This document shows, one piece after another, positions 2,221 through 63,452 of a stretch of 64,000 nt of DNA. Source of the stretch: Telmatactis stephensoni (lineage: Eukaryota > Cnidaria > Anthozoa > Actiniaria > Isophelliidae); assembly GCA_029948255.1 (NCBI GenBank), contig JALIZF010001504.1, positions 1-64,000 on the forward strand, given 5' to 3'. The first letter of the stretch is position 1, and each line of letters starts with the position of its first letter. Both the position numbers and the translations under genes were made by a program. The notes below the pieces were generated by a model, which searched no databases, was not told where the DNA came from, and saw only the letters and a list, made by a program, of their open reading frames with translations.

Positions 2221-2515
2221 AGGAAAAGACAAGCACTGCTAAAGAGCAGTATATTACCGAATCTGTGTATGTTGCTTGTGTGAGAGAAGACGCACTGCTA
2301 ATGGGCAGTACATTACTGAGTTTGTGTATGTTGCTTGTGTGAGAAAAAAGCAGCACTGCTAATGGCAGGACATTACTGAGTCTGTGTATGTTGCTTGTGT
2401 GAGAAAAGAGAAGCATTGCTAATGGGCAGTACATTACTGAGTCTGTGTATGTTGCTTGTCTGAGAAAAGACTACTAATAAGCAGTACCCTACTGAATCCG
2501 AGTACGCTGCTTGCG
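2221..2515 (+). repeat. Minisatellite, about 63-bp unit, 4-5 copies
   Basis: Repeated CTGTGTATGTTGCTTGTGTG followed by AGAAAAGA...CACTGCTAATGGGCAGTACATT, with copies degrading at both ends. Just 3' of the SASH1-like gene. Confidence 0.85.
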
Positions 2516-2569
2516 CTTACGCTTAAGTCGCTCGTGAAGCCAGCCTTAAAAAGAATTATTTTCGACGAT

Positions 2570-5500
2570 TCATCTTGGCATCCGTTCCACTGACGCCAAT
2601 AAGCGACGCATGTGTCTCAAGTCGACCACGCCCGCGTATTCAAAGTGCTTTTGTTTAAGGTGAGGTATAACACTCATGTCGTCATACTCGACCTCTCTTA
2701 GATTGTCAATATACATGGGTAAACCTAATGACACCAGCCATTCCTCCAAGGAACTAATTTGACCAAGATGGTCGGGCTCTTGAGGGTAAAACGACAAATC
2801 GCACGGAATCTGTGGAAAGATGATAGTGCAAGATCTTATTGAGGCTGCGGCGTTCATACTAGTACAGATAAATCTGAGAACACATCTTTTTGCTACGACT
2901 AGACCTTCCGTCCAAACTAGAGCATATTTCGTATGAGTGTGAAATGGACTGCGTCGTACCGTGACTGTGTCACTGCTGTTTTCTCCATAAAATCTGATTG
3001 ATTGATTGATTGACTGATTGATTGATTGAGTGAGTGATTGAATGATTGATCTATCTATCGATCGATTGATTGATTGATTGAGGGAGTGAGTGAGTGAGCG
3101 ATTGATCGATTGATTGATCGATCAATCGCTTGATTGATTAATCGATCGATTAAAATCGATCGATTGATTAATTGATCGATCGATCGATTGATTGATTGAT
3201 CAACTTTGTTTAGTGATGATTGTCAAAACAGGGGGGAGATGCGTTTTCGAATTTATCAAATTTAGAGTCAAAGTACCCTAAATTTCTGTACATTATTTGA
3301 GCTATTAAAGTTTGATCAATCAAGAAAACGCCGTTTCAGAGAAGATTACAGAAACAGAAAAATACTTTAAAAATTATCCGAAGTGTGAATGTAGCCCGAG
3401 TTTTTGTACATCATTCAAGCTACGAAGCCTTAAATAGAACTACTTCTTACAATGAGGCCAGAAGATATTTCAAACATGTACTCGGGCTACTTACCGAAGA
3501 TCGTCCCTTTTCCCTTAATTTTGTACAACGTATTCTGTCCATAATTTCAACAATTTCTTTTTGAGATCTTCGCATTTCTTCAGTATATCTATCTATTAGA
3601 TTAATAGGGACACCCCAGCTGCCACTCTGAAATGAGAACACATTAAAGGAATCATTAAAATAATACTCCAGTATTTTTGCCAAGACATTAATTCGCCAGT
3701 AACAAAATGAGGTGGGGCCTGGGACCGAAATCGGATCGCAAAGCATGCATGGATTGCTTTGCTGGACCGTTATGAAGTCACCCAATCGATTGGAAGCTGC
3801 AGACTTGTAAAGGTGAAGATAACGTTCTAGTCATAGTATCGGTAGTCCCTTCAGCACGAAGCCGATCTACAAGAAAACCGATAGTCTCCTACGCAGCTGC
3901 AGTTTTGTTGTCACGCTAGGGCTTAGCCCCCAAAAACTAGCGTGACAACAAAACTGCGGCTGCGTAGGAGACTAGAAAACCGACGGCTAGGAAAGAAGTC
4001 GAAACAAGTGTGGGAGGTAGGTGACTGGAGATCAAATTCGGGACCTCTAGCTCAGAAGGCTGTGCAGTAACAAACTTGCTTCTGCAAAAATTAAAGTTCT
4101 GAGTTACAGTAGAACCCCGCCCTACGGTCACCCCGTTATCACGACCAACGATTTTGGCCCGACAACTAGAGATCACACTTAATCTCTTGTAAACACTACA
4201 CCGTTAATACGACCAATCCGTTAATACGGTCAACCCGTTAATACGGCCAACACATTTTATAACAGCTACAATCTTACGCGCGCTCTGATTGGCCAGAAAG
4301 CTATGAACTATTTGCCCATGGGCTGCACTGCGCGCGCTCTATCTTCGTCGTCTTTTTCAAATTGTTCGTTTTTAAGATGGCGACACATATAACGCGCGCT
4401 CTGATTGGCTGAAAAATCTATGAACTATTTCCCCATGGGCTGCACGGCTCCGTTTTTAACGTTCTAGGCTCTGTTATAAATCAATTAGACATCAGAAAGC
4501 CGCTTGCCCATTGCGTTATAGACGCACCTGATAAAATATAAAGAACTCTTTACAAACTAGAGTCGCACTCGGCTACGCCTCGTGCCATTCTTACGTTTGT
4601 TAATCGTTCTTTATATTTTCTCTCGTGCGTCTATAACGCCATGGGCGGGCGGTTTTCTGTTGTCTAATTGATAATTGGTGTGCAACTAAAGATTGCACTT
4701 AATCTCTTGAGAAAATACCCCGTTAATACGACCAATCCGTTAATACGACCACCCCGTTATCACGACCATCACATTTTGGCCCGACAACTAGAGATTGCAC
4801 TTAATCTCTTGAGAAACCCCATTAATACGACCAGTTATTTTTCGACCATAGGTGGCGATATTAACGGGTTTTTACGGTATTTATTAGGCCCGTTCCATAC
4901 GCCGTTCCACTCAAGTGTCATGTATTACTACCGCAGAGTTCGAGTCTCGGGCAAATTCGGAGCGGCGTGTGATACAGACGGCGTACTTAATGCTGTTTCC
5001 TGTTCGAGTTCGAGTCCCCGCTCTGGCCACTAGCTGAGGGTGAATTTGTTCCGGGCAACACTTAGTCCAAATTCAGTTTCTCAACCATGCATGTAATATA
5101 GCCAACTAGTTCACTTCCTTGCCAGTTGGGATTCTTAATTGAGGGCCATTATGTCTATACCCTCATTAAAATAAACATTCTTTTCTGTTGCTGTTGCGCA
5201 GGGCGACAGACACCTCCGAACTTAAGACAGTTGTCACAACCAAATAAAAACCGTTATATAATAATTGGTATATTACGCGCGCTCTAATTGGTCGAGAACC
5301 GTGTGTGGTTACAGTACACACACATAGATGACGTCATTGAATCTTACGCGCGCTCTGATTGGTTGAGACGTTTTGATGAATAATATATAAAAACAAGTAG
5401 ATTCCATTTTTCCGTGGGTCTGTACTCTAATTGGTGCACCGCAGAAGACGACAAACAATGGTGAGAACAACAGTCACGTCACTCGACTTCGCCTCGTAGA

Positions 5501-8500
5501 GTACTTTTTCGTTCTCAATACATATTGACGTCATCTGTGCGTCTATTAGAGTACAGACGCACGGGAAAATGGATGCAAACACAACTACTTACTTGGCTTG
5601 AATATGGTGAATCTGTTAGGTCTATTTGTTCGATACGTAAGCGCCTCTCAATCAAATCAGACAGAGAATGAGAGGGTCGTTTTTTAGTTACCGGAAGATC
5701 AGGGACATTTAACGACGATGCTTCCTCATGGGTCATTCCAGCACCTCTGTCATCAAGGTCCTCTTTTATAAAGGTACCTGGTTTAGCTGGTGGCTTTGGT
5801 GGTAGTCGTGGTTTCTTTTTAATACCAGGTTTAGGTTTTGTCACAGGGGGTACCCCTGGGGTAGGTTGTGGTACCTTAGGTGGTTCCTCAATATCTTTAG
5901 TTACGACTTTCTCAGGTTTTTTAATTGAAGGCCGTGGTGGCTTTACGAGAATGTTTTTAGGTCCTACTTCTGGTTTTCCAGCTAAAACTTCCGGTTTTCC
6001 AGCTAAAACTTCCGGTTTTCCAGCTAAAACTTCCGGTTTTCCAGCTAAAACTTCCGGTTTTCCAGCTAAAAGCACTTCCGGTGGAGGAGGCGGAAATACG
6101 TCATCTTCCAAAGAATACCTATTTGAATTATTGCAGTTATTTACAGTTTGAGAAGGCAAATCCTTCAATTGTTCTGATTCTTGTAAAGATATTTGATTTT
6201 GATCTTGTTCTTTTGCAGGAGGTACAGACGGCTTCTCTTCAGGAACATTCCTTGAGCTTTCTTCAAGCGAACTTTGCCTTGGTGGTAATGCTGGAAGCTC
6301 TTTTACTGCTGCCTTTGAAACTGAACTTCTTTTGTCATCCTCAGTCCCTGGAGACAGCAGAGCAGGGGCGGTGGCTTGCCTAGGGAGTGGTCGTGGGGGT
6401 GGGGGAGGGGCTTTGCGTACTGGATGAGGGGGAGTCGGTAGGGGTGGTTTATGAGTGGGTGTGAGGGGCAGAGAACTTTTTCTGCTTAAAGATGGATTTT
6501 TGGGTCTTGCATTTCTCGGTAGCGTACTGGTTTGTACAGGTGACCGGTTTTCTGTTATAAAAGAACATTCAAAAGAAAATATAAGCTTTCATACGATTTG
6601 GTTTTTGAGAAATCATAAGTGAATATCGGCAAATTTGTCTAATTACCATCATCATCATCATCATCTTCAATATCTTTATCATCATCATAATATCGCAAAA
6701 TATGCAAAATTAATTCAAAGGCTGGAGCAAAGAAAGTTTGGTACTTTCTTGAATATCGTCCCGGAAATGAGGATTTTTAAGGGGGGCGAGTTATCGTTGG
6801 AGCTACAATCGTTGACATTATTTGTTAGCACGATGTGTAACTCACGGTGTTTTTGTACAATACGCACTATAGGATCCCCCTACCCCCTACACAATGTTGC
6901 TGGTCGCTATAAAGTCTGTTGGATTGGTTTCAAGGTAGTAAGTACCAAACGCTTCACAGCAACATTGTAAGGTTGGATAGGGGTGAGGGTGTGGTGTGGA
7001 GGATCTATTCTCTGAAAGATCCACTTCGCACTGAAGCCAATCGCTTCAATTTTGATAATGATTATAAATATTTCTCCGACTGAAGCCTCCTACAAAGCAG
7101 AATCCCCAAACGACCAAGTATGTCCAGAATCACCATTAGATACCATTGGTAAAATATGTTTTACCAATGGTGTCTATTGGTGAATTTCCACAGGGTTCCC
7201 TCTAAAAACCCTATCACAATATATATGTACGCTCGTGTTTGGGATTGCTGTGGTATCAATTGCTTAGCTTTGGGATTCCTGTGGTATCAACTGCTGGCAA
7301 GTTCAGATTACCTTCTTCGTTATCTGCTGTTTCTCTTTTTGCGAAAACATTTTTCATTTCATTTAAAAATTGGTTTTCAGGGTGAGCTGTAACACCCCGT
7401 TTCCCAGGACTGCCCTGAGTTTCTACATCCTCAATTGTGCCAAGTCTGTCAACAGCGTCTGAGCTGCTAGAAGAACTGTGTAACGACGACGTTGAATGGA
7501 TCTGTAAATATGAACAATTCAGATAAGATTCACCACAGTTTGCAAGAGCGTAGCCTCCTCCGCAGGCACGTCTATTTTCTCTATCTTTGGGATTCCTGTG
7601 GGATTCTTGTTCCTAATTAGCACCTAGTCCCTCTCTATCAGCAACACAGGAAACCCAAGACATAAAAATATTCAAATTCTTAGATCACAGAGATGCTTGC
7701 GGAGGAGGCTAGCAGGAGCGTATCCAGGATTACCCTATGGTAGGGGTACAGCAAGGGGTCATACGTAAAGTTTCATGGGCGTGCGTAACTTACGAGTACT
7801 TTACTACGTCATACGTAAAGTTTCATGGGCGTGCGTAACTTACGAGTACTTTACTACGTCATACGTAAAGTTTCATGAGAGTGCGTAACTTACGAGTACT
7901 TTACTACGTCGTGCGTAAAGTTTCATGAGCGTGCGTAACTTACGAGTACTTTAATATGTCACACGTAAAGTTTCATGAGCGTGCGTAGCTTACGAGTACT
8001 TTACTTCGTCGTGCGTAAAGTTTCATGAGCGTGCGTAACTTACGAGTACGTTACTACGTCGTGCGTAAAGTTTCATGAGCGTGCGTAACTTACGAGTACT
8101 TTACTACGTCGTACGTAACTGTATCGCGGGCCAAAGCGTGAGTAACTTACGAGTACTTGTATTACGCATACCAATACGTACATATGTCGATTACTCGTAC
8201 TACATCGTACGTACGCAAACTGTCAACTACGTCGTATGTAAAACGTTTCAATCGTACCTGATTATATTTAGCATTTCTAAGAAGTTCGTGACCGGTCTTC
8301 CTGTGTCCAGCAGGGGAAGGATCTGGAGACGAGTCGGACGGTAAATGTGTACTGTCTTCTTCTGAGCTTGTATTGAATGAACCTTCTGTAAAAACAAAAA
8401 CATTATTGAAAATACAATACATTTGAACTTTTGTGATAGGTATATTATGATTTTGACGTAAACAGTTTTAAGGTACGAGCGATATTCACTAAAACTCACA

Positions 8501-11500
8501 GTAATTTACCTTAAAGTCAATATGTTTAGCGCGGACAATATAATTTAGCGAATTTTAACGAGTTCCTCAAAATCGCCGAATTTTATACTCGCTAAAATTA
8601 GTATCTTGGCGTAAAAAATGTCATTTCTTTCTGAAAATCGTTAAACTAAGAAGCCACTAAATAGCCCCTTGAAAAATTGCTACAGTTGCTAAAACAGTAA
8701 TCAGTAGTGTTTAACAGTAAATAGTAGTGTTTAAAAAGTAGACATTTTATTGAAGGTACAGCGTTTTGCAAAAAATTCTGAGAAAGCCAAGTATATACAT
8801 CTATACATATATACTAAAATTTACTATATATTAATTGTTGAAGACTTTAAGAATGATTTATTGTTTTATTGCTACAGGCTGTTTCGTATGATCAAAAATT
8901 GACCACACTCTTCAGGCAAGTTACAATGAATGACCGTTAAAATTCTGGCAGAATTTTAACGGTCATTCATTGTAACTTGCCTGAAGAGTGTGGTCAATTT
9001 TTGATCATACGAAACAGCCTGTAGCAATAAAACAATGAATCATTCTTAAAGTCTTCAACAATTAATATATAGTATGTCCTGCTCCTATTTTTATAGTCGA
9101 GCACTCTTTGGAAATAAGTTCATGACAATTTTAAAGTATATACTAATTTACATATTTTCAAATTTCTCTAAAATAGCATCTTTTTCATAAAAAGTAAGTC
9201 TGCTTATCACCATTACGTCTGAATAACTGCATCGTAAATTTGCAAAGAATTTGTATTTTTGCCCGTATTTTAGCAATTTTAGTTTGAAAACTACCCACAA
9301 TGCACCTTATATATGTATATATGTATATACTTGGCTTTCTCAGAATTTTTGCAAAATGCTGTAAATATATGTGGTTTTGAATATACATATATATCAAGCG
9401 TTGGTATATACTAAAACAATGATTCGCTTCACTTTTGGTATATAGCGGTTTTAGGAAATATTTACAACGACGCTGCGAGTCTCGGTAAATATTTTACCGC
9501 CATTCACCTCCAGTTCAGAGAATAATTAATTATTTCGAGATTTTAATACTTCTTTTCATATCGCGGCTTTTATGATTCTCGAGTATCAAATAAAAATTTC
9601 CGCTTTCTCACTTTCTAAACCTGTTTCAGTTCTTGTCTTCTAAGGTCCAAAAGGAAAGTTTCCTCCTTCACTTTTAGTTATGATACATCGCATTTAATTC
9701 GTAGAAGTCATTTCTGGCAGTTCGTTCCGGGACTTAAACGAAAGGGTTAAGCTAAAATCAACAACCAAGTCAATTCGAATACATTTTCATACTTATATTG
9801 TAGCGGAAATAAGCTAGCCCGTTGTGCGCTCGTAACTTCGAGGTTCTCTTCTACCACAACGGCTTTGTGCTTACCTTGAGGGTAGAATACAGCGGTTGGT
9901 TCATCTTTGGGAACTCCACTCTTAGAAAATGCTCCTGACACACGTTTAATGCTGATCCTTGTGAACGATGAGTGAGGAGACTTTGGAGAAAACTTGGGCT
10001 TGAAAGATTTTGGCTAAGAAAGCAAGAAATCGTGTTAGAATACAGTAAATGAAGGGATGCAACGATGTAAGTACATATTTATTTTCAATTTAGACCAGTG
10101 TGTACTCTCTCGCGAATACCATCAAGGCCACCAAAAAAATTCGTCTTAAGGAAGTGTTTATCTTACAGAGAGTTTAGCGTAAGTCGGTCTGTTCGCTCCT
10201 GTTGGGCTTCCTGTGTTGATCGATCACCGATGCAAAGGAGCGAAGACTGCAACTTACGGAATCAGTCTAAAGGCCCCATTATATGAACCGGGCTTACCGG
10301 TTCACATAATCAGGTCCTAATAGAGAGTTAAGAATATCGATAGAAAGGGATAAGCAATTGGACTGTTTGTTATACAGAGATGTCCATCTTCCTGAGGTGT
10401 TCTTTTGGAGAGAGTTCACTTTATTTACGTAGAACTTTATTTTGAAGATACTGACGAGCAGTTTTCAAATAGACTTCGTCCACACTAAATTGGATAACTT
10501 GAAAACACATCCTTTTACTTCCATTTCCGTTCCCTGCTAGCGGAGTCTTAAAGCCAATTTACACGATACAATTTTTGCTTACAACTTGTCGCATGCAACG
10601 ACCCTACAACTTGCTTACAACTGTTGCGTGCGACAAGAACAAAAGGTTGTAGGATTTTAAAACATGTTTTAAAACCTTACAACAGTTGTAGGAGAGTTGT
10701 AGGGTTGTTGCATGCGACAAGTAGTAAGCAAAAATTGTATTGTAAATTCTGATTTGATTCAGTCAAGTCAGAATTTTTCTGTGCGAGACTCTGCTGGCAG
10801 GAAACTGTTTTCTTAATCTACACTGAAATCACACTACACTGAATCGAAACTTCCGCTGAAACGAAATTTTCATGGACAAAGGAAAATGAGGTTTTAATAT
10901 GGACGAATGGTCTAGCCGTAACAAAAAAGATGCTTGAGTAACAATGCTTGTAAAAATATTGTTCCGATGCATTTCACTTTCCCATAAAGAATGGTTGGAT
11001 TTTCAGGCTGAGAATACGTCAACCTATGAACAATATGTTATTGGAATAAAATGCGCTAAAACTCTATTTAACAGGGAAGTTTCTTTTGTGTGACAAGTTT
11101 TTATCCAATAATGAGATTCCAAAACAATAGCTATTCAAGAAAAGTTTCCAATTTTCCAAGTTCCCCACATAGAATTTTTCTTTTAAAACTCAGAAAAATT
11201 TTAACCAAGAGAAAATCAACTAGTGAACTACGGAGAAATTAATGTAATATCTGATGAAGATATGTTGGATATTCATTTTTTAGCCAATGAGATGGATGGA
11301 TTAAACAATATAAAATTAGGCAACCTCTTACTCGGACCACTACTTAATAAGAATATTCTTAGAAAAACGTCTTAACAAAAATATATGCCACAACAGTACT
11401 GCACGATCCTGGGCGTTTCGAAGACTTCATGTCAAGTGCTTTCAAAATTATGCATGTCGATTAGTTTGAACGTATCCTTGGAAAACTGATGTAATAAGGC

Positions 11501-14500
11501 ACGGCAAGCCTAGCCGAAATCAAAGAAAATCATTCGAAAATGTCAAATGAAAACTAAGAACATTGTTTACAGTGAACTAAAAATCAATAGGTTTTCTGGG
11601 AATGGAGGCTTGGCCTCAGTAAATGTCTTTTCCATGAAATTCAGAAATGAAAAGCCACCCTATGTAGTCATAGCTCCCCAGGCAGACATGCCGACCAAAT
11701 GAACCGGCAGAGTTAGGAGTGCTGCCACTAGAAATATTATCACCAACAAGTCCTTTCCCTGTCTTCTATATAAGTGTTACTGTTTGATACCCTTATTGAC
11801 ATTCATAACAGCATCAAAACGACTTGTAACTCAGTTCTATAAGGAAAGTTCAAAAGAAATGCAGAATTCGAGCTAAATTAACTTTACTACAAACCTTTGG
11901 AGTGTGTGAATCTTCCTCAAAGCTGAAAAATAAGTGCAAAAAGAATTACAAAAATAGATTCAAACTGATATGACAGTGTTTAGCTAAGACACCACAAGAG
12001 TAACTGAGAAAGCAGTCAATACTGGCACATCAGATGCAACTATTGTACTATAATAAATATTGGATTTGTTTTTGGGAAGTGGCGCTATACAGGCAGATAT
12101 TTTAACGATTAGAATACAGGATAAGGAATTCAATATGCCAAACGTCCTATTGGCATGTGTTACGCTACGGATTTCCAGTAATTATGTATTTATTACCCTC
12201 AATGTATTTTTGAGTAATTTTACTAGTTAAGCATTTTAAGTGCTGTAACCTTGACTGTTTTGATCATAGGATTTGTGTATTGTTTCGACTTGTGTGACGC
12301 ACCCTCTTTCACTGTAACCCAAACAGACCAACGTAGGGTTTCGCTTCGACTTCAAACGTGATGTAAACAGGAAATTAGATTTAGTTTAGTTATTATATAA
12401 TAACTATATATATTCGATATTTGTCACACTCGCACACTCTTTAGTCTTTGTACAAACTAGCGAGGCAAGTTCGCGGTACGACTCAGTGTTAATTGGAAAG
12501 TACAGCCCCAAGTACGGAAAAGTGGTCGAGCAAGGAACTCCCAACCACTCCGACTAAGGAAAGTCTTTCTGGTTAGCCTGTCTCTACCTCAACTTGTAGT
12601 ACGAACTCTTGCTTAGCTTGTAAATATAACTCTTGTGCAAAGTCTAATAAACGAGTTGGCAGAGTAGGCGATTCCTCACAAAGTCCCTCACGTGACACAT
12701 GTTTTCCGATTATCTAGCCCTGGTACGCGAAGGTTGGATAGCGTTATACGCTGACTAAATCTTTATCCAGTGCCGAATAAATTTATTGGAAAATGATATA
12801 AGTGGATAAAGGATTTATCCAACGGATAGTACTATCTTGGAGTCGGTTGTACGAAGCCTGGATAAGTTGCCCGTTTTAATTTGATCCGGTAATACTCAAA
12901 GACATTAGTAAACCATTTTTACAAGGAAATTGGCACGCGCTTTCGGATGTTCACATGCTCAATATATTTGATGTCTTTTGAACATAAAGTACGAATATCC
13001 GCCGGATAAATCTAAATTCTCAAAATTCAGCGGATAAAAATAGCTATAGCTCTTATCCGGTAGACACCTGTCTGAAGGTACCCAAATAAAGTAATTTTAC
13101 GTCCGGCAGTGTCCGCATACCTTAACAGTTTCTGAAGCGCATCTTCTACAGATATTTGGTGATCTCTAACACTTTTCATAAGGTTGATTCTATCTTCTTC
13201 ACTCATTGTCATATCACAAGCAGGGATATCTGACCCAGGTCGACTAATTGTCTTCTTTTTTGTACTTCTACCAAACAATCCTCGTTTTAATTTATGATGG
13301 CTTTTAGGAGATTCTTCTTCGCTACATGAGCTGCTCTAAAATACAAAGATAAAAAACAGATACTTAGAATGAGACTAAAGGTACACAGGGTTCCCACTCT
13401 GCTGTTAAAACAAATTTTTCCGAATAGACCATATGCACTAACAGGTCACGTGACCCTATCTGCCCCGCTAAGTCAAGCAGCACCATCAAAATGAACTCCA
13501 AAAAATTAAAGAGCACCTCGATAATAGTAAAAGTGCAAAGTTTCAGTTTATAAGATGAATAAGAGAAAAAATGGCAGTAAATTTAAGAGGGGATATTTTT
13601 CTTAAGATTCGTTCGGAAAAGCGCGTTGGATGGCACGAGCTTGCCACCCAACGCGTTTTTCCAAACGAATCTTGCCACCCAACGCGTTTTTCCAAACGAA
13701 TCTTAAGAAAATATCCCCTCTTAAATTTACTGTCATTTCTCCTGTATTATATCTTATGAGCTGAAACTTTGCACTTTTACTAATATCGAGGTGCTCTTTC
13801 ATTTTTTGGAGTTCATTTTGATGATGATGCTTGATTTAAGGGAGATGGGGACACGTGACCTGTTAGTGCATATGGCCTATTTTCCCTGACCAAATCCCAT
13901 TTTTCTTAACTTTTTCCTGAACACAAATTTAGAACAATTTCTATTCCACCGATATTGGTCTACCAAATTAAGCACTTATAAACTTACCTTTCTAGTTGTA
14001 TCTTCTTTTGAAGTCTGAGTTTTCTTGTGTTCTTTTTCATAACTACGTGGAAAGAAACAATTAGAGCAGAGCCTTCATTAGAGCAGAGCCTCCATTAGCA
14101 AATACTGTAACTCAGTTTGGCCTCTATAACCAAACCATTTGTTTTAATTGTCAATGGTAACAATGATAATAGACCTGAGTGACTTCTTTGATGTGAGAGC
14201 ATACCGTATTTACTCGTTTTAGCGCCGCCCCGATTAAGCGCCGCCTTCGATTAAACACCGCATCTAAGGGCAAAATGATAAATTAAGTGCCATCCTCGAA
14301 TAAGCGCCGCATTTGTCCACACAGTGCGACGCTTATTCAAAAGACTTCCACTAGACAGTCATCTTGAGTAAGGAAAACCAAGTACGGTATAACTCAACGC
14401 TGAAATTGTGTAGAAAATAGAGGTTTTGTACATTTGAAGCACGTTTATTGTGTTGTTAACATTTGCTTCAGTTATTAAATCATTTTTGAGCCTTGTGATT

Positions 14501-14740
14501 TCTTAATAAACGCCGCCCCGAATAAGCGCTGCATCGGAAACCAAAAAAATTAAATAAGCGCCGTGGCGCTAAAACGAGTAAATACGGTAGATAGTTTGGT
14601 TTAGGAAAATCTATGAATAACCATTTTAGACCGTGAGAGAGAACTTCAGAAATCATCCGAAAAGTCACTTTTGACACTTTTTAAGGGCAACTCTTTATAA
14701 TGCTTCTTGCCTTGGTAGGCAACCTGGTAGCTCTCATGTT

Positions 14741-14784
<44 letters not shown>

Positions 14785-17700
14785 AAGAGGAGACCAATAA
14801 AAGAAAAACTGTGAGAAATGAGGGAAAGGAAGAAAGAATAGGACAGAAGAAATGAAAGGAAAGACAACGGAGAAAAGTGGAGGAGAAAGGGGAGAGTGAC
14901 TTAGTGGGAAGAAGTAATCTGTTTAGCAGTTTCAGTATATTTGCCTACAAAGGAAATACAGTGCAATCGACTTCCCCCAGGAATTTAGGTTATGTACTGC
15001 CCTGGATGTGAACGTCTTGCTATTTGCAGATATAAAATGCAGCACCTTCTTGATTATTAATAATATGAGTGTTGATCAGGTCTGGGCTCAAATCCCAACC
15101 TCATATTTAAAACACCGATGCTCAACCAACTAAGCCAACAACTTAGTCTTACCTTTCCATCTGCTGCACAGCTTCCTCGACAGTTAACTCTCCATTCTTG
15201 ACCATCAGCATAAGTGCTACTCTGTCTTCTTCACCCATAGTAATGTTACTGGCAGGAAATTCTGCGCCAGCAACGTGTTTCACAGAATTACTAGTGGTAT
15301 TCTTAGTGTCTGGTGACTTGTCATCACTTGAAGTATTTTTTCGTTTACTACTGCGGAATATCCCAAATAGAGAAGACTGCTTAGGTTTACTTGTAGATGT
15401 GTCTTTGTCAGCTTTGGTTTTAATATCTGTATTTACTGTTGATAGTAGAGCATAGAGAGAAGAAGTTTAACTTGGTAGTTTTCACTAATCTACAACATAA
15501 TCAGGAATGAAGGCAAATCTGTAAAACCATAAAAAGAGAGTAAATGTACTTCCAGCACTGGCCCTTCGTTGGAGTTAAGGTTGAAGGGTCAAGCCTCAAA
15601 ACATTAGTACTGTAAGTTCTCTCTTTTTATATAGCATTAAATCATTTATTCCTTATAGCATCTTTACACACCAATGCAGCCCAAAACAGTTCACTCACTA
15701 GTTTTCACTTGTGCAACATAATCAACTTCTTGGTCAGTGGAACTAAAATTTACCATTCCTCAAAACTTACATGAGACAATAGTGGGAGTTATACAATATC
15801 AAGAGACCATAGCACTAAGAGAGTGAAACTGGTATTGATGTCTGCCTGATGTGCTTGGCACTTAAGGTTATTTTTAGTAACAAGAAGTTGACACCATCAT
15901 ATACTCAAACAATGAAATTTGATTGCCGGAGGAGAAACAGTTCTTATTCACATGTATGTAAAACTCAAATTCTATTGTTTTAGAGCCTTGTGCATGTGAT
16001 ATGGTATCAATTTCTTGTTACTAAGAATAACCTTAAGCGCCAACACATCGTGCAGACATCAATCTGTAAGTTTCAATCTCTTAGTATTATGGTCTCTTAA
16101 CAGTATATAGAACTGTTCGCTTACGGTCCAACATCAATCACTATGTCTAGACTAGAATGTTCTCCTTACCATGAAGCTCTTTAAGAGAGTCAAGACTTCT
16201 AGAAAGTTTAGAATTTCTTTCTACGGGACGTCTCCTTTTGCTCTTCTTATGGGGAGAAGACTGGACATCAAGATAATCTGCAGGGTCGACCTATACATAA
16301 AGTACACAAAATCTTTAATTAATAATTTCATTTCTTTTCGTTAGCAAGCCATTCCATCCCAGGGGGATACTCTGACAAACATGTAAAAGTGACAGGGAGT
16401 TGTACAACCATTTATTAGGCTTGAAATTTCCAAAATATGTCTTTTTAGGTTGTGCATGTTTGGTAGCAAATTTCACTAATAACCTTCTATATTACTTATT
16501 GCTTTATAGACAGACAGCTTTTTTTGGGGAGGAGAGGAAATGGGGAAGGGGGAGGAGGGGGAAGAAGGTGTTGGTCTTGGACCACATTGGTCTTTTTTGG
16601 TGGCTGGTCCCTGGGTAACTCCTCTGAGCATAACATACACGTACAAGTAACCTTGTTTTCACTAATTTTAGATAAAATAGAAATTGGCTAACAAATGTGC
16701 TCACTGAGAATCTGGAGCAGGGGAGAAGGGGGGCTCATTGTACCTTTTAGGGCCCAAAACTAGTGGTCTGGTATTTTTATTGGTCCACCAGCATTTAATC
16801 TGGCACCTTTTTAGGGTGGTTTTCAGGAAATAAGACACCCTCATATAACTTTACAAATAGGTGTTCAAAGATAAGTGTAATTTTATTAAAACTAAAAAGT
16901 GACATTTGTTTTTGGGTTGTACTTAGTAGGGGTAAAAATCATGTGTTGCCACACCCACCTGTATAAGACTCAGGTATCTTTTAGGGGTCATTTTCAACAT
17001 TTCTGATGAGCATCCCTACCCTTCTTTATATAGTAGTCTCCCACAGGCTAAGAGTATAGTTTCAAATTAACAATACTAAAGATAGTCTCCTTCGCAGCCA
17101 TTTTTAGTCTCGTCACGTCATGCGAATCCTCCCCGTGACTATACTAAAGATCGTTACTTACTTCCTTAGTTGTTAGAGAAGAAGGTGCAGTATGCCAACC
17201 AGAAGTGTCTTTACCAACGCTGTGTAGTGGTGCAGTATGACTTCGTTTGTGTTTAGACGAATTAGGACTATGGTCATCATGGTCTGAGCTAGTAGCTTGA
17301 TCATTTCCCTAAAACAAACAGTAAGGTAATGTAAGTAAGAAAGTAGTAATGAATTACTATGTGACGCATGTACAACATGCATGCACAACTGTTTCTAGTG
17401 GGAAACATTAAATACTTCCAGTATGACAGCTCACACTTGACAAAAAACACTCAAGACATTTTTGTTCTTATGGCATATACACAGGACATTTTACTTGCAA
17501 TTTCTTTAAAAAGCTGTCAGTAATCTTTGGCAGATTCCATCAAAACAAATTATTTCTTTAATATCTATATTTTTTACAGCCAATCTCTTCAAAGCCAAGC
17601 ATGAGGTTGGCATAAAATTAAGAAATACCAAAGTTATTTGCATTTTTTGCTCAAAGTTATTTTGATTTTGTTTATTTTTTGTTAATAAAATCATAAAAAG

Positions 17701-20700
17701 TTTATTTCAAAGCCATTTTAAAAATGCATGCTTGGTTTTATGAAGCTTGATCTCAAGATTTATTTCATTTATCAAATTCTCCAGTATGCATTGTTGAAGA
17801 AAATTATAGCTTTTTTCTGTAGCAATGACATCATGCAATGACATCATGCAATGACATCATCAAATGCCAAAGACTCAGTTCCCTCAGTAAACACAAATTA
17901 AAGTATTAAATATGAAAGTGATTTGACAGTTTAGAGGCATTTTAGAGCATTTTCAAATTTCTCTAGCAATGGACAATTTTTATATATCAGTACACCCATA
18001 TATAAGTTGTATTTTCCTCTGGCTGAGGAACGAAAGAAGTGGAAAATGTTTTCTCACACATCACTGGGGCCTGGGCCCTAGGGGCCTTGGTCACGTGTGC
18101 AGTGGGCAAAATCAGTTGCTTTTTTGCTGTCCGCCATTACTGACTTGTAAGTTTGAGCCCTTAAGTACCCACCCAACCCTCAGTCGACATTGCTAGAGTA
18201 TCATTTTAATTAGGCTCTGGTTGACAGTCTTATCTAGTTTGTTATGTGTTTACCATGCTTGATGTAAGTTGAGTTTTAGTTTTGTTGATATGAAATAAAG
18301 AAGTCAGTTGGTGGTGGTCAGCTTGACAATAGCTCCCAGTGGTGTGTGAGAAGTGACTCTTCTGACAATTTTTTCAAGTTTTCTCAAATGTTCTAAAATG
18401 GTTTCAATAAACTAAGTTTCTGATTTCTAAGTTAATTTCTATTTTCTGATTGGTTATAAAAAATATGGCAAACCTGTCTTGAGTAACTATGTAATACAGT
18501 GCCCCATATTTGCTTAGTTCTCTCATTCTTATTTGGTCAAATTATGTCATAGTTATATAATAATTAAGCTAAGTTATTTAGTAGCATTAGAATAGAATAT
18601 TCAATAGTAACAAAACAATACTTACTGTCTGGCTTTTTCGTAGTTGTTCTTGCATTTCTCCTACTTGCCGAACTCGTATACTCTCCAGAGCATCAAACAC
18701 ATCTTCTTCATATGTATAAAATTTGTCAGCATACAAAGTCACTAGATTTTCTAGATTGCCACGTAAACCATTCTACAACAAGACAAAAGCAAACTCAGAA
18801 ATCTGGCTTTCTTTTGAAATGATTACATTGCTCCAAATCAGCTATTGGCTACGAAGCTTTCTCCAGGTCCCCTGGTTTTCCTCCCTCCATCAGTACAAAA
18901 TAGACTAGTGAGCTGAAAGTTATGTGCACTGAATAATTAGAATGTAGTCTGTGGTGGTGTGGTAAGAGAGTACAGTGTCTCCCAATAGTCTCCTTCACAG
19001 TTCCCTGCGCCATCTTGAAAGGTAGCCGTGCCTTTGCATCGAAGCGAGACGAACGGTGAGCGTGCAATGATAGATACCTTTTTTAACACCTAGGACAATT
19101 ATTCACAAGTCTCTATCAATGCAAGCTCACCGTTCGTCTCACTTCAATGCAAAGGCATGGCTACCTTTCAAGATGGCGCAGAGAACTGTGAAGGGGACTA
19201 TAGTTCACAAGAGCTAGACACACTTAGTGAGTGCTTGCTTGTTTTCATCAACAAAAATTTGAATAGAGCTCGCAATGTCACTTCATTTTCAAGATGGCAA
19301 CATTTCTGTATGGCATTTTTAGCCATTTCAAGGGTATTAAACAAGTTGATTTTGCATGGGATCATATTATTTTCATGAAGCTAATGAAAACACATGTAAA
19401 ATTCTATCCCATATCAAATTTTGACAAACATTGACTTTAGAAAACTCATAAATAGGTATGCATTCATTGCTGATTATCTCAAAAACAAGACACACCCTTT
19501 TTCTTTTTAATTTTGGAATCAGCATGAAATTTCACTCCAGAAAATCGTTCTTAAATTTTCTCATTGCATTTTTTTTTCAATAGCAGACAGCACGAGATTC
19601 AAAGGGAAACAATGTTTTATTCTGCTTTATCAGGAGTGCCAGGGAGAATAGCTTTCCTGAAGTGTCCCCTATTTAAATACAGCTATTATTATTATTATTT
19701 TATTATTATTATTACTAGTTAAATAAAGCTATTATTGTCCCCTGCTGTAATACAACAGACCCTGCAGACAAAATACTAATAGCACAAGTCATATACACCA
19801 AAGAAAAGCTGTCACACAAATTAATTCTGGCACTGCTCTTTTGTTGAACTTAATCTAGTAATTACTGTTAGTTACGTCATATGACAGTTGTATCATATGG
19901 AATTAACCTCAGTCAATCAAATAATCTCTAATAAATTAATAGGGTCGTGTGGGTTATTCTTAAAGGACAGAGAATTTCAACTTATGTAAATGTGTAGAAC
20001 ATTTTGACAACCAAGAGAATCCAGATGTTCCCCTATAATGCCTTCAAGAACACATCCCATGATATCTTATGACAGATTTGCCATTCCATTATCATACATT
20101 TAAATTAATAATCAGAGATAGTTTGTAAGATTGCATCAGTATGATCCACAAAATTCATTTCTCAATAGTTTTCTATCCAGCTGCCCACCCTTCTTTCAAC
20201 TAAGAGAAGTATGATTTCCAGCCCACAGTTTATATCAAGCAAGTTATTAAATATAGCAAATAAGCATATATAAACCTATTTCAAAAAAGGTTGTCACCGC
20301 TAAGAGCGATAGGCGATAGGTCATTCCAAGACCGCAAAGCACTATTGATTTCTTAATTAAGCCATCCTAAATCTTTCTTTACACTCTTCCATCAAATATT
20401 TGGCTATTCATATGTAAATCAATTAGAAATCGATCGCCTATCGCTCTTAGCGATGACAACCTATTTTGAAATAGGTGTATAAAAACATTATGGAGGAAAC
20501 AAAAAACAGATACATCATGGTGAATAAAAAATGAAAAATTCTGACCAAACTCAACAAATGGGATTTGCCTAAGGCTAACGGTGGGATTTATCGGCATTGA
20601 CATAATAACTGTTAGATGCTCCTTTCAACACACCATTTAAACAATTAATAATATGATTTAAGTGTCATTTAAGGGTCATTTCTCAAGTATTTTAATCTCT

Positions 20701-22696
20701 TTACCGTAAAGAGGAAATACATTATCATTTCATTCATTAATTCCACAAGACGTCTTTGTTTGAATTTTTCATATCAATTCCACTTCATGATTATCAATGT
20801 TTTGCACAAAACATGAGGAGGTATCTTAAGATTGTTTGATCAGATATAAAGAACAAAACCATGTTCAATATAGCTGTTGAAAACTATTGTCGTGTGCTTT
20901 TGTGTTCTTAAATTGGTATAAAATTTCTACATTGATACAGAACATGAGCAATAGAAACCACAAAAATGTGTTATTGTGAAAATCAATAAATATTTTTCAT
21001 GTTTTCAGGTAAAAATATTAGAGTTTTCAATTTCAATTTGCTAATATTTGTCATTGTAGGGTGTGAATTTATTTATATTCATTTCTAATCTTTTTGGGAG
21101 CATTATAATCTCTATAATTGTAAGTGTTAAGATGTGCAAGATTTGTGGTTTCTAAACTTTAATGAAATAACAATTAAGTAATCATAAATTAGACTTTTCA
21201 TATAAAAGTGTAAACAAATTGTTGGAAATAACAAAATTACAAACTGATAATTTCCTAGATTAAACAAAAAACAATTAAATTGAAAAATGGGATGGGTTCT
21301 CTACTTGGATGTTATCCAGACAAACTCATAACAAATTTGCATGTGGCATTGTAAAGAAGCACATGTGAAACTACAGTTTGTTCAATATTCATTAAACTAA
21401 ATCTACATAACACATGTCAGAATCTTGAAGAGCATAATAAACTGAACAACGTTATTAGAACACTAGAATTCAAAGATGGAAATTGTACCATAAAATTGTA
21501 CATTCGAAAATAATTCAATGTTACAATTTCCCAAACAAACTTTATCATGAATAAGCGCTGAAATTGTTACAGATGCACTAGAAATCTAAGAACAGAAATT
21601 TTTGTGATTACAATATGCTGAATGATAAACCACAATTTGAATTTCTGGTTTACCATTTCGACACCAACACGACAAAACACTTCCCTGCCATAACACGGAG
21701 ATTATCCCCCTAATTTTTCACAAAACACAAACAAACACGTTTACTGGAGAAAATAACCAAAACCGTGGTCGCTTTCTCGCCAAAACAAGACGATTGGAAG
21801 ACATGTCAAAGCGTTTGACAGCTGATGACTGAATTGTTTGTTGGAAATACGCTTGTTCAGTAGCGATAAGATTTATTTTGAATAAATTCACGGCCCAACC
21901 AGGAACTGAAACGTCTAAAGCTCGTTTCAGCGTTCATGTGACTAACTGGTTTTTATAATCTGCACGAGTCATCACGGATTTTAGAAATTTTATAAGATTA
22001 TATGGTTTTAAAGTACGAATAAATCGACCTCTCGAAGTCGCCTTTCGCCCTTGGAACAATCGATCACTCATCAATTTCAATAGAATTGAAATGTATTGAC
22101 CTACACGAACGTCCCGTAATTTACACAACTCTGAATGAATTGAGACTCGGCCTCATCTAAAGACGAATACATAATGCCCAATACCAATGATTTCTCAATT
22201 CATCAAAGTTATAGAATATAAGGACATGGAATAAAAAAAAACCTTACGATCAAACTCAAAATTATGTTCTGCTGAACTAGCGGTATTAAAGCAGCTTACA
22301 TCGCTAAATAATATAATTTCTAAGTAGAAAAAATTAAACTTTACTTACCGAAAGAGTATAAGGATATTCACTTAGTTTTATATTATCTTCCTCTAACGTA
22401 TCCCGAACCTGCATTTTTAGTTTCAAAGGGATAATTTTTTCCCGGGCTTGTGTGCTAGGAATAGGTTGGGTCCCTTCCTCTAACACGAAATACACGGCAG
22501 TTCCACTTTGTCTTAACCGATTAACAGCACCAAGAATATCCACACGATCTTTCATATTCTTCACACCAATAGCATCTAAATCCTCCTCTCCAATTTCTTT
22601 GCAAATATCAAGTTCATCGTAGCCATTATCAAGGAAGGCCTGAGTGTACTGAATCAGTCCCAAAGACCGAAGCCAGTCTTCAACAGTACTACTCAT
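2570..22696 (-). CDS. SASH1: SASH1/SLY-family scaffold protein with a SAMD5-type N-terminus (14 exons)
   Basis: Cytoplasmic/nuclear adaptor family with SAM domains; SASH1 acts in signalling scaffolds. Coding exons, high to low: 22696-22349, 18772-18626, 17308-17162, 16290-16170, 15435-15153, 14042-13988, 13335-13121, 11922-11895, 10013-9875, 8385-8258, 7501-7312, 6551-5593, 3626-3495, 2809-2570. They sum to 3132 nt, 1043 aa, with all phases closing. Exon 1 is a SAM domain (about residues 4-70) followed by a SAMD5-like tail. Exon 2 matches the SASH1 N-terminal segment (GNLENLVTLYADKFYTYEED). SLY-type motifs lie at about residues 319-349 (NITMGEEDRVALM) and 408-439 (DMTMSEEDRINLM). Exon 12 is proline-rich. 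Exons 12-13 match the SASH1 pre-SAM segment (IDLTDSPYS, INLIDRYTEEM). The last exon is the C-terminal SAM (LEEWLVSLGLPMYIDNLREV). I see no SH3 or middle SAM. The start is the only ATG ahead of the SAM. The family call is firm; the 28-nt exon 8 is the least certain piece. Confidence 0.88.
2919..2996. mobile_element. MITE family B (TTTCGTATGAGTGTGAAA), degraded copy
   Basis: Starts with the family terminus and the GCGTCGTACCGTGACTGTG core but is shortened. Intron 13 of the SASH1-like gene. Confidence 0.6.
2995..3203 (+). repeat. (TTGA)n / GATC-rich simple repeat
   Basis: About 200 bp of TGATTGAT-type tetranucleotide repeats with CGATCGAT interruptions. Confidence 0.95.
3882..3974. repeat. 93-bp hairpin
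   Basis: Arms TAGTCTCCTACGCAGCTGCA and complement flank a short GGGCTTAGCCCCC loop region. Near-perfect palindrome in intron 12 of the SASH1-like gene. Confidence 0.85.
4104..4860. mobile_element. Nested repeats: TAATACGACC repeat split by GCGCGCTCTGATTGG element and foldback
   Basis: CCGTTAATACGACCAATCCG repeats (4190-4255 and 4715-4830) with a shared GACAACTAGAGAT...CTTAATCTCTTG block are separated by an insert. The insert has two direct copies of ACGCGCGCTCTGATTGGC (4273 and 4390) and a foldback at 4482-4670 with arms containing GCGTTATAGACGCAC. Confidence 0.7.
4905..5180 (+). mobile_element. SINE-like sequence
   Basis: Has a Pol III B-box-like GTTCGAGTCCCCGCTCTGG and a tail with ATAGCCAACTAGTTCAC...GCCAGTTGGGATTCTTAA. 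I associate this tail with anthozoan SINEs (recollection, not checkable here). Confidence 0.5.
5255..5580. mobile_element. Foldback family C, copy 1
   Basis: Contains ACGCGCGCTCTAATTGGTCG, two TGACGTCA palindromes, and an inner inverted part (GGTGAGAACAACAGTCACGT ... CGTTCTC). Related copies at 27165-28190 and 30740-30890. Confidence 0.75.
5966..6075 (-). repeat. In-frame 21-bp repeat in exon 12 of the SASH1-like gene
   Basis: Five copies of a 21-bp unit encode AGKPEVL repeats inside the proline-rich region. Copies are nearly identical at DNA level, so length polymorphism is likely. Confidence 0.9.
7132..7182. repeat. 51-bp hairpin
   Basis: ACCATTAGATACCATTGGTA and its complement meet at AAATATGTTT. 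Intron 11 of the SASH1-like gene. Confidence 0.8.
7758..8160 (+). repeat. 50-bp tandem repeat array, about 7-8 copies
   Basis: Unit begins GTCATACGTAAAGTTTCATG and ends ACGAGTACTTTACTAC, with an exact 50-bp period in the first copies and decay at the 3' end. Intron 10 of the SASH1-like gene, about 100 bp from exon 10. Confidence 0.95.
8759..9363. mobile_element. Foldback MITE with a 253-bp near-perfect inner palindrome
   Basis: Outer arms (GCAAAAAATTCTGAGAAAGC at 8768 and complement near 9345) enclose an inner palindrome 8822-9074 whose arms meet at one base (8948) with about one mismatch. No coding capacity. Confidence 0.85.
10557..10748. repeat. 192-bp foldback element
   Basis: TTTACACGATACAATTTTTG...CGCATGCAACGACCCTACAA pairs with the complement at 10690-10748. 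Confidence 0.85.
10760..11890. other. Intron 8 sequence without a clear element
   Basis: AT-rich intron of the SASH1-like gene. The only odd item is a 57-codon coding-like frame at 11205-11375 on the plus strand, reported separately. Confidence 0.4.
12158..12697 (+). mobile_element. Solo LTR (540 bp)
   Basis: Starts TGTTACG and ends CGTGACA (imperfect 7-bp inverted termini), flanked on both sides by CATG (12154-12157, 12698-12701). Has a TATA-rich stretch and TAATAAA near 12644. No retroviral-type coding region adjoins it, so it is a solo LTR left by recombination. Intron 7 of the SASH1-like gene. Confidence 0.65.
13423..13882. mobile_element. 460-bp foldback MITE
   Basis: Arms AATAGACCATATGCACTAAC and complement. 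The centre carries a duplicated CTTGCCACCCAACGCGTTTT. Intron 6 of the SASH1-like gene. Confidence 0.85.
14202..14589. mobile_element. MITE with TACCGTATTTACTCG termini
   Basis: 25-bp inverted termini (TACCGTATTTACTCGTTTTA), internal AAGCGCCGC repeats, 388 bp, non-coding; intron 5 of the SASH1-like gene. Confidence 0.85.
14741..14784 (+). repeat. (CAA)n microsatellite
   Basis: About 14 perfect AAC units. Confidence 0.95.
15075..15142 (-). mobile_element. tRNA-derived SINE head
   Basis: On the minus strand, TGGCTTAGTTGG fits the Pol III A box and GGGATTTGAGCCC resembles a decayed B box at tRNA spacing. No full cloverleaf. It lies 11 bp past the exon 5 donor. Confidence 0.45.
15801..16098. mobile_element. 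MITE family D, copy 1
   Basis: Arms AAGAGACCATAGCACTAAGA and complement. Shared body with 30170-30476 (GGTATTGATGTCTG, AATTCTATTGTTT, GAGCCTTG). Intron 4 of the SASH1-like gene. Confidence 0.85.
16320..17150. other. Intron 3 sequence, nothing recognised
   Basis: No exon or defined transposon ends seen. GT/GA-rich patches only. Confidence 0.4.
18845..18957 (+). mobile_element. SINE tail-like sequence, copy 1
   Basis: TTTCTCCAGGTCCCCTGGTT...CCTCCCTCCATCAG followed by TATGTGCACTGAATAATTAG and AATGTAGTC. Shares its last 50 bp with 41270-41325. Confidence 0.45.
18985..19202. mobile_element. MITE family E, copy 1
   Basis: Inverted ends ATAGTCTCCTTCACAGTTCC / complement, with AAGATGGCGC and GAGCTCACCGTTCGTCTC-type arms. 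Second copy 47256-47466. Confidence 0.85.
19684..19730 (+). repeat. (ATT)n microsatellite
   Basis: ATTATTATT run with one interruption. Confidence 0.9.
20271..20481. repeat. 210-bp foldback element
   Basis: CCTATTTCAAAAAAGGTTGT...GCTAAGAGCGATAGGCGAT pairs with its complement at 20430-20481. Intron 1 of the SASH1-like gene. Confidence 0.85.
20482..22348. other. AT-rich intron 1 sequence, nothing recognised
   Basis: About 1.9 kb next to exon 1 with no repeats or exons that I can see. It could hold regulatory sites. Confidence 0.4.
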
Positions 22697-26388: not shown

Positions 26389-29300
26389 CTAGCTCATGAC
26401 ATTGCAATAAATTTCTCCATTGATGGACCCACGGCAGGCAGGACAGCGACGATTGCCGTTTTTGACTTTGCCTATACACTCTCTACAGTACAGCATGTGA
26501 GTACATGGCATAATGATGCAATCGCGTTCACGTTCAAAGCATATTTGACACTGAAGGGCTGACTCCTTGCTATCAAGTTGCTTCTGTATTTGTTTGACAG
26601 TGTCTTCGAGTTCCTTGATCTTTATTTTATAACTGAAAAAAGAAAAACGTATAGATTTAGAAAAACGTGATGAGACGCAAGAACGTCAATATACCACATT
26701 TGTTAATTCATTGCGTGACCAAAACAGTTTTCGTTTGACTGTGCAAATGTCAGCGTTACGGCACGGTTGCCACAGGAATTTCGAATGTTGTTATAGACAA
26801 TGCGGCACTGATACGGTCACATTCGTTAATTCATTGCGTGACCAAAGCAGTTTTCGTTTGACTGTGCAAATGTCAGCTTTAACGTACGGTTGCCACAGGA
26901 ATTTCGAATGTTGTTATAGACATTGCGGCACTGATACGGTCACGTTACGGCGCGGTGAAGTTTCAGTACACATAAAAATTGCTCTACTGTGACAGCGTCG
27001 CGACGCCACGTTCAGAAAACCATTTCACTATTTCCTTTCTTTGGAACGTCGAAGTTATCGACGGTTATTTGCATTATTTGACAGCGCACCTTCATTGCTT
27101 TTGCTGATCAACCTAATAAATTGATGATTTAATACAGCATCGTTTAGCAATTATATAATATTTGGGTTTTTACGCGAGCTGATTGGTCGAGAACCGTGTG
27201 TGATTACAGTACACACGCATAGATGACGTCATTGAACCTTCTGCGTGCTCTGATTGGTTGAAATATTTTGGAGAATAATATACAAAAAACTGTGGTTCTG
27301 TACTCTAATAGATGGATATGTCAGGAGGCTAGAAAAGTACAAATTTCTAACTTAGGAAAAGAACTAAGTTCATCTTTAGTTTCCTTGACAACCACTTGTC
27401 CTTGAGAACTTTTTAATTAAAAGAACAAAAGCAATTAAGCTGTTGACCTTGTAAAACACCTCAGGTCAATAGGCCGGTAGTTGGATCTTGTTGATCGGAA
27501 CTGGAAAGGTTTAGTTTAATTACTCGAAGGACTAGAGTTGGACTTGGTACTGCACCTGTCAGCAAAACCGGTTCTAAATGTAGTTTTGACGCAAGCGCAG
27601 AAGATGAATATCTGCCTGTAAATCTAAGATAGCGTCATTCATTAGTTTTGTTTACCAACAGACTTTGAGTCAAGAAAAGTATACTTGTTCTCGAATAAGA
27701 CTTTAGTTTTTATATCTCAGTCTATTTTGACTTGAATATACAAGCGATTGCCATCGACGCTTTGTTAAGTTAATCCTTTTTACAAAGAGTTATTGTAGGA
27801 TTAAGGTTATTGAGTCAATAACCCTTGACCAGGTCAGAATCATGAATATTTAATGAGTCTTCAGCAGAACTCACTACAACCAGTTGAGTGGGTTATGCTA
27901 ATGAACTTGTATAAATAAGGCTAGATACTAGCTTAGATAGAACACACAGTTTGACTCCAAAGCTGTAACTAGTAAGAACTGAACGACGAATAAAGATCCT
28001 TGTACGCTCTACCTTGGTGGAATTAATTGACTGAGTTCACCCTCATAACAGATAGAAGACGTCAAAATGTGGCGAGAACAACAGTTACCCAATTCGACTT
28101 AATCTCGTGGCATACGTTTTTGTTCTCACCACATTTTGACGTCATCTGTGCATCTATTAAATTACAGACGCACGAAAAAATGGGATCTATTTGTTAAACA
28201 AAAGTGAACATATGAACGAACGAAAGAATAAAAGCAATCGCATTATGTCCATTTACCTGTCTGTCAAATTCTTTATTTCCAAATCACGTTCCTCAATTTT
28301 ACTCTTCTTCGAATTCAACGATTTCCTGAAATCATTTTTAAGCTTTTTGACTTTCTCATCGTGCAAGTCTTTCAGCTGCTGCTGACTTGTAGCCATCTCT
28401 GAAGTCATTGCGTCTAAAGCGTCTTTTAGTTTAGAGTTTGACTGTAGCAATGATGCCTTCTCTTCATAAAGTGTTTGGTATCTTAGTCTTAGAATACTGT
28501 AGTCTCGTGCATTGTCGTTATGAGATGTTTTGCTGGCATTTGAAGGTAATTGAAGAACTCTTAAGACTTGAAAAAACAAAATAAAAAGAGGGTCAGAACT
28601 AACTTGAACAGTTAAGGTGGCTCGCAGTAGTTTCCCAATGATGTTACCTTGGCAAAGATAAACAAATAGCTGATATATTGTTATTTGCACTGTTGTGCTT
28701 CAATGCTATCCACTAGTTTGTAAAAAATAGTGCAATTAGACAATGCATGTTAAATTTTATTTCACGGATAATGCACAGGGAGCCCGGCTTTTAAGAGTCG
28801 TACGTAAATGAACGAATAAATCAATTAGTATTTTGGGTTTCCTGTGTTGAGATTTGAAACGAGACGCTAATAATGGAGAGTTTCCGGTAATTGTAACTGC
28901 CAGTAACCTGATAGGAGATTACATGGGGTAACTTGAGAGCAGTTTGAAATTCAAATCTAACGTATCAGTGTAACGCACTCTCTTAGTAACAGTCAATTAT
29001 TGTGATATATGGCGTGCACTCTAATATTTCTCTCTCTCCCTAAGGTGTTCAGGGATGTGCAAATTACCTTGTCCTTTAGCATACTCTCTACACTCCACTG
29101 TTCCATTAGGCCACGTGAACATGCCACACCCATCTGGTTCATTTTCGTCCCAGATCCCCTCGAATGAAGAGCCATCAGGATATGTCATTGTACCCACACC
29201 AGACATTAAATCATACTGCCATTCACCATTATATGCAGAACTTGATGCGAAAACCAAACTACCATGTCCGTGCCTAACATAAAGTAGACAGTTAAAGGCC

Positions 29301-52573: not shown

Positions 52574-52893
52574 AAAATATTTCATTCTCCATAAGCCTTT
52601 TCGAAAGTACAGCTCATGTGATTGGTTTTCATTATCCAATCAAAACTATTGTAATAAATAAATTCAAAAAAAGGTAAGCGATGGGAGGGGTACTAGACTA
52701 ATTTTTGTATTAGCCTAAAATGCTTGTTTAAAATTAACAAATTATTTTGAAAGTCATCTTTTTCTTAAGATTGACAATATTTAAAATCAATTAATACTTT
52801 AAAGCTAGATTTTAGCTGCTTATTGCGAAATTACAGTTCAAGATACAAATTCGATTTCTCCCCTCCCTCCTGGTGTTTTAAATTCATTCCAAG

Positions 52894-59131: not shown

Positions 59132-63452
<4,321 letters not shown>

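Follow-up and report, generated by a model that had tools for sequence, protein, structure and literature searches.

A predicted 14-exon gene on the minus strand of the Telmatactis stephensoni window (the whole stretch of DNA analysed, 64,000 nucleotides) joins counterparts of SAMD5 and SASH1 in one reading frame. A domain newly described here, HB1, has the SAMD5 tail as its first half and SASH1 exon 2 as its second, and another copy, HB2, sits before the C-terminal SAM. The architecture, SAM - HB1 - two SLY motifs - proline-rich linker - HB2 - SAM2, is very probably that of a single scaffold gene and the ancestral state. The joined form is most likely older than the two-gene state, and goes back at least to the cnidarian-bilaterian ancestor, since the human gene border bisects a domain that is whole in HB2, in NUB1 and in other animals. 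With the junction inside one domain, the two-gene state is most simply the derived one. The sequence-only reading of the window had proposed an ancestral single unit; joined predictions from other animals and the position of the junction support this as far back as the cnidarian-bilaterian ancestor.

The exons run on the minus strand from the start ATG at 22696 to a TGA stop that ends at 2570, and splice into one frame of 1,043 residues and a stop in which all phases close. All 13 introns have GT...AG borders. Exon 1 (22349..22696) holds the start codon, a SAMD5-type SAM and a SAMD5-type tail, and ends in phase 0 after 22349, with TCG followed by the donor GTAAGT. Across a first intron of 3.6 kb, the acceptor TTGTAG precedes the AAT that opens exon 2 at 18772, also in phase 0; both sites score well. 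The sequence-only reading had placed the gene at 22696..2570 and the junction at 22349/18772, which is exact in splice sites and phases, and it had exon 2 following in phase on the same strand, as it does (phase 0 on both sides, in a frame that closes through 14 exons).

Exon 2 (18626..18772, phase 0 in and out) carries the second half of HB1 (NGLRGNLENLVTLYADKFYTYEEDVF...), supported by AlphaFold2 models of orthologues, and is where SASH1 homology begins. Exon 3 (17162..17308) follows from splice sites and phase, and exon 4 (16170..16290; VDPADYLDV...SLDSLKELH) from alignment with the joined predictions P0001 and P0002. The first SLY motif, NITMGEEDRVALMLMVKNGELTVEEAVQQ, lies in exon 5 (15153..15435) and the second, DMTMSEEDRINLMKSVRDHQISVEDALQK, in exon 7 (13121..13335). 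Between them the small exon 6 (13988..14042; SYEKEHKKTQTSKEDTTRK) was placed from phase and from homology to SYEKEHKKVPTSKE of P0001 (Actinostola SYEKEHKK...). Exon 8 (11895..11922) is a candidate of 28 nt that restores phase and was placed as the SYEEKHK of P0002; its donor is weak (gtttgt) and it is the weakest part of the model. Both small exons, 14042-13988 and 11922-11895, are needed, since the phases close only with the two together. An earlier model of 1,010 aa, with a poor acceptor at the second SLY exon, had a phase gap and was dropped after homology to P0001 gave the small exon and a better acceptor. Exons 9 (9875..10013), 10 (8258..8385) and 11 (7312..7501) come from the splice model. 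Exon 12 (5593..6551) is proline-rich and ends in phase 0 with the first half of HB2, exon 13 (3495..3626) carries the second half, and exon 14 (2570..2809) the C-terminal SAM (SAM2-like, by Pfam) and the stop. At about 5950-6085 on the minus strand, exon 12 contains a coding repeat with the unit LAGKPEV, where Actinostola and Nematostella have a gap.

Residues 1-538 of the model are 77% identical to the joined Actinostola protein, so the resemblance is not due to chance. Among named relatives, sea anemones come closest, in keeping with an actiniarian source. The joined Nematostella protein aligns with the model over its full length in MAFFT, and local BLAST against it matches model residues 886-1043 only. 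The fish protein P0018 matches residues 3-382 and 896-966.

The same stretch could be read as two adjacent genes, with exon 1 a SAMD5 transcript of its own and a SASH1 promoter inside the 3.6-kb first intron. Exon 1 read past its donor does stop after four codons (VSKV), and an Exaiptasia 'SAMD5' model of 143 residues (P0031) ends soon after the junction, with a different end. P0031 could reflect a genuine short isoform or a mistaken annotation, and its end has no convincing match within the window (best E 1.7). Among 91 proteins of the size of exon 1, 65 fit the tail pattern (misplaced in P0061 and P0062) and 26 do not. Fifty of those 65 continue into VS, VR or VK, as read-through of a GTAAGT-type donor would give, which argues against a separate gene. 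So do the good scores and phase 0 of both donor and acceptor, the joining of both parts in the Actinostola and Nematostella predictions, and the fact that both halves form one domain. We regard two genes as very improbable and favour the single gene.

One domain across the junction

The first half of HB1, which resembles the NUB1 N-terminus and spans up to the junction, lies at 22349..22432 on the minus strand (IPLKLKM...YPYTLS) and was recognised by the HB2 profile. Profiles of HB1 (29 sequences) and HB2 (22 sequences), both built from other animals, align over 64 columns with an hhalign probability of 99.0 and an E of 5.7e-18 for one comparison. On the joined HB1 of the window the HB2 profile reaches 35.6 bits, against 14.2 for its first half and 14.8 for its second; shuffles reach 8.1 bits at best (2,000 made, 1,810 reported). 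In the window, HB1 and HB2 are each interrupted by a phase-0 intron, at an identical alignment column. This shared intron is probably older than the duplication of the domain, since position and phase agree in both copies.

AlphaFold2 models of two joined proteins are confident across the junction. Ten-residue pLDDT means are 89-97 over residues 91-160 of the Nematostella protein (junction 118/119) and 91-97 over residues 131-190 of the loach (Misgurnus) protein (junction 157/158). The whole models are mostly of low confidence, with mean pLDDT of 56.8 for Nematostella and 54.8 for loach. In both, HB1 and HB2 consist of a helix, two bridge residues, a helix and a further helix, and the junction falls between the two bridge residues of HB1.

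Searched against the PDB, a profile of HB1 only matches the NUB1 N-terminus at E 1.1e-8, as a single stretch across the junction, and a profile of both HB copies together does so at E 1.2e-9. NUB1 is a proteasome cofactor with a named N-terminal domain, the profile homologue of HB1, to which it adds UBL and UBA domains (PMC12285911). Homology between HB and NUB1 is thus indicated by sequence profiles; with the Nematostella model, Foldseek gave no NUB1 in the best 50 of 170 rows and no row at all at E<=0.001, the top rows being SAM domains. PF26285 (SASH1/NUB1 homeodomain-like) stands in the precomputed Pfam lists of all 28 joined proteins (28/28) found by the first homology search (see below), and had no match in the Pfam scan that covered P0001-P0003.

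In human SASH1, residues 1092-1170 are predicted to form a 'SAM-like' bundle that is described as never reported and possibly an artefact (PMC10252437). By its location before SAM2, this bundle is HB2, a NUB1-type domain. The result offers an identity for the helical bundle in front of SASH1 SAM2, together with a partner copy.

Joined proteins in other animals

A search with the earlier 1,010-aa joined model returned 28 homologues at E<=0.001, which, grouped by name, are 5 cnidarians, 4 molluscs, 3 arthropods, 1 nemertean, 2 lamprey isoforms, 8 fishes and 5 without a name. The SAMD5 part of the loach protein (residues 1-165), searched against long proteins, matched 993 of 1,288 candidates at E<=0.001; 120 of these were listed, and the other 873 may include other SAM proteins. 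Among the 120 matches listed, 119 bear fish names (by eye) and one is nameless, with no tetrapod joined protein. As far as seen, the joined proteins are database predictions, labelled SASH1 isoforms or SAMD5 at more than 1,000 residues.

The spacing at the junction is identical in all 147 joined proteins returned by both searches (147/147). A profile derived from 29 of these proteins recognises an N-terminal HB1 in all 147, and the mid-loop pattern of the SAM is likewise present in all 147; the SAM lies within the first 30 residues in 146/147, and two HB copies are present in 134/147. Two sea urchin proteins, P0100 and P0101, come without the SAMD5 tail. Compared across cnidarians and invertebrate bilaterians, gene models are joined in cnidarians, molluscs, arthropods and the nemertean. 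The sequence-only reading had made SAMD5 and SASH1 separate neighbours in vertebrates, which is only partly right, as fish and lamprey gene models are joined; a later split in vertebrates, also proposed there, overstates the case for vertebrates overall, since fishes keep joined models. No literature was found on an ancestral unity of SAMD5 and SASH1, or on anthozoan proteins as such a unit, in a search of largely open-access literature.

These distributions bear on a secondary fusion, in which SAMD5 and SASH1 were originally two genes, the human arrangement is old and some lineages fused them. It is common for neighbouring genes to fuse. Human SASH1, for its part, is described with two SAM domains only (PMC10252437). 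Such a history would require cnidarians, protostomes, lamprey and fishes to have fused the genes independently at one and the same junction, and every fusion to have assembled a NUB1-type domain from two unrelated ends, and yet the domain is whole in NUB1 and in HB2, where the window has an intron at the same place. We find it scarcely credible, and retain an ancestral joined gene.

The N-terminal SAM of the anemone gene (22508..22690, minus strand; mid-loop DNGYDELDICKEIGEEDLDAIGV, with Y26 and D39) scores 51.7 bits with Pfam SAM_1 (cut-off 23). Its nearest solved structure is SAMD5 (5zrz_B; 64.7 bits, E 6.8e-17), against 34.6 bits for the SASH1 SAM (8j1i_H), and the Nematostella AlphaFold2 model is 52% identical to 5zrz_B across 62 columns. 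The SAMD5-like SAM that had been proposed for exon 1 is thereby borne out. The proposed SAMD5-type tail likewise agrees with the tail of the joined proteins, with which it was compared here. The C-terminal SAM scores 36.6 bits with Pfam.

The two motifs of exons 5 and 7, called SLY in the sequence-only reading, align with P0001 and P0002. The motif weakly resembles Pfam SHOCT-like_DUF2089-C, at 14.2 bits for exon 5 and 31 bits for P0003 (cut-off 27). The exon-2 region, HB2 and the C-terminal SAM occur in the order in which SASH1 has them. A SPIDER-SH3-SAM1 block is conserved in SASH1, SASH3 and SAMSN1, according to PMC10252437. Pfam detected no SPIDER, SH3 or SAM1 in the three minus-strand frames of 2501-12400, and no SPIDER or SH3 in P0001-P0003 (Actinostola, Nematostella and Stylophora). 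Over 2,154 pieces of the window, including the gene model, an SH3 profile made from 24 non-cnidarian joined proteins scored 5.7 bits at best, and on the same pieces a SAM1 profile exceeded 6 bits at the two known SAMs and nowhere else. SH3 is present in 139/147 joined proteins and in none of P0001-P0007, of which five are named cnidarians and two, P0004 and P0006, resemble these; the partial P0028 is the eighth protein lacking it. To judge by the domains recognisable in its sequence, the anemone gene is not a canonical SLy-family protein, though it is colinear with SASH1. The claim that everything from exon 2 onward is SASH1 therefore stands for the exon-2 region, the two SLY motifs, HB2 and the C-terminal SAM, but not for SPIDER, SH3 and SAM1, which were not found.

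The anthozoan joined 'SASH1' predictions P0001-P0003 share the architecture, the junction, the two SLY motifs and both HBs, likewise show no SH3 or SAM1, and differ from the anemone gene in sequence only. The fish protein P0018 (Misgurnus) and the mollusc protein P0010 (Biomphalaria) share with it the N-terminal SAMD5 SAM, HB1, SLY and HB2, but carry SH3 and SAM1, and P0018 also SPIDER. The loach isoform P0018 stops before SAM2, which the anemone gene has.

Y26 and D39 of the window correspond to Tyr27 and Asp40 of SAMD5, in a residue numbering that we presume to be the published one. PMC5993539 reports that the SAM of SAMD5 binds the SAM domains of EphA5-8 and EphB1-4 via its mid-loop, and names both residues in contacts of the EphA5 complex. 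SAM1 of SASH1 also binds EphA8 and EphA2 (PMC11820823). With no SAM1 found in the anemone gene, the end of its protein that docks on Eph is probably the N-terminal SAM, and the original protein would likely have docked on the receptor in the same way.

Human SAMD5 and SASH1

Human SAMD5 has two exons, the second of which stands in place of the second half of HB1. Human SASH1 has a first exon of its own followed by the same exon 2 start, with the second half of HB1 only, and is not known to have the N-terminal SAM. Mammalian SAMD5 shares with anemone exon 1 the SAM with its Eph-binding mid-loop and the tail, but is a separate short protein that ends inside HB1. Human SASH1 has the SLY region, HB2 and SAM2 in common with the anemone gene and adds SPIDER, SH3 and SAM1 (PMC10252437).

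We propose that a single scaffold gene was ancestral at least to cnidarians and bilaterians. Its N-terminal SAM would dock by the acidic mid-loop on the SAM domains of Eph receptors, in the manner of SAMD5, and so link the receptor to the scaffold. SAMD5 would have arisen in the human lineage through an alternative last exon that follows exon 1, and SASH1 through an alternative promoter with a first exon ahead of exon 2, each of these shorter proteins carrying half of HB1. Transcription across both human genes would still sometimes yield the joined form, and the reported 'fusion' transcripts would be that isoform.

Transcripts of the kind that the sequence-only reading had suggested looking for in vertebrates have been reported in human. 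In-frame SAMD5-SASH1 transcripts occur in 4/5 chordomas with RNA-seq, with breakpoints at SAMD5 exon 1 and SASH1 exon 2 and no copy-number change in the fusion-bearing samples; the two genes lie 772 kb apart at 6q24 (PMC5352057). The fusion was also found in 3/48 neuroblastomas, two of the three cases being non-high-risk (PMC7653769), in four meningioma samples, all grade I (PMC6489307), and in ACTH-secreting tumours (PMC11852724). The last paper lists the 'fusion' in almost all oncology databases that it checked, and describes read-through as one way in which transcripts of this kind generally arise, though not for SAMD5-SASH1. In the portions available, all four papers term it a fusion and none invokes read-through for this pair.

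It is conceivable that the joined gene is ancestral and that the human tumour transcripts are nevertheless products of rearrangement that use the same exons by chance. Publication as gene fusions would fit this, as would the expression raised with the fusion (SAMD5 in PMC5352057 and PMC7653769, in neuroblastoma SASH1 too, PMC7653769) and the finding of PMC6489307 that none of that paper's fusions appeared in one consortium's set of paediatric brain tumours. We consider it unlikely nonetheless. The evidence against it can be summarised as (i) the same pair recurring in several tumour types; (ii) chordomas without copy-number change; (iii) mostly non-high-risk neuroblastomas and uniformly grade I meningiomas; (iv) two genes 772 kb apart at 6q24; (v) read-through being a general source of such transcripts, though the pair is not named. 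The recurrent in-frame human 'fusions' are plausibly read-through of the ancestral unit. On balance we lean towards human SAMD5 and SASH1 still being one transcription unit, whose exon 1-exon 2 'fusion' is a conserved normal isoform that predates the cnidarian-bilaterian split and restores the NUB1-type domain, SAMD5 and SASH1 being its shorter isoforms.

If this is true, two human genes studied apart in cancer and in Eph signalling are one ancestral scaffold gene. Normal tissue free of rearrangement would then be expected to contain the 'fusion' transcripts, and whether they count as tumour events would have to be reconsidered.

Elsewhere in the window

The window holds several other coding pieces. 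A RING finger exon (zf-C3HC4_3, 51.5 bits) is found at 26392-26685 and MORN repeats (61.3 bits) at 29024-29335, both on the minus strand. On the plus strand, 39808-40158 and 46769-47149 give peptidase M50 pieces that score slightly below the 27.2-bit cut-off (26.5 and 25 bits) and look by eye like a site-2 protease (MBTPS2); 37399-37722 (plus) has no Pfam match and by eye seems part of the same M50 gene. Radial spoke protein 3 (98.6 bits) occupies 50846-51427 on the minus strand and by eye likely extends within 49559-50999. An Ashwin domain (67 bits) at 52882-53157 and a GIY-YIG-like piece (20.7 bits, cut-off 22.6) at 53451-53816, perhaps a retroelement remnant, are both on the plus strand. 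Two further plus-strand pieces, CLIC-like by eye, match GST-type domains: the N domain at 61995-62582 (29.1 bits, above cut-off) and the C domain at 63105-63449 (22.8 bits, below cut-off). A long simple repeat at about 60293-60707 reads KKER/RKEG.
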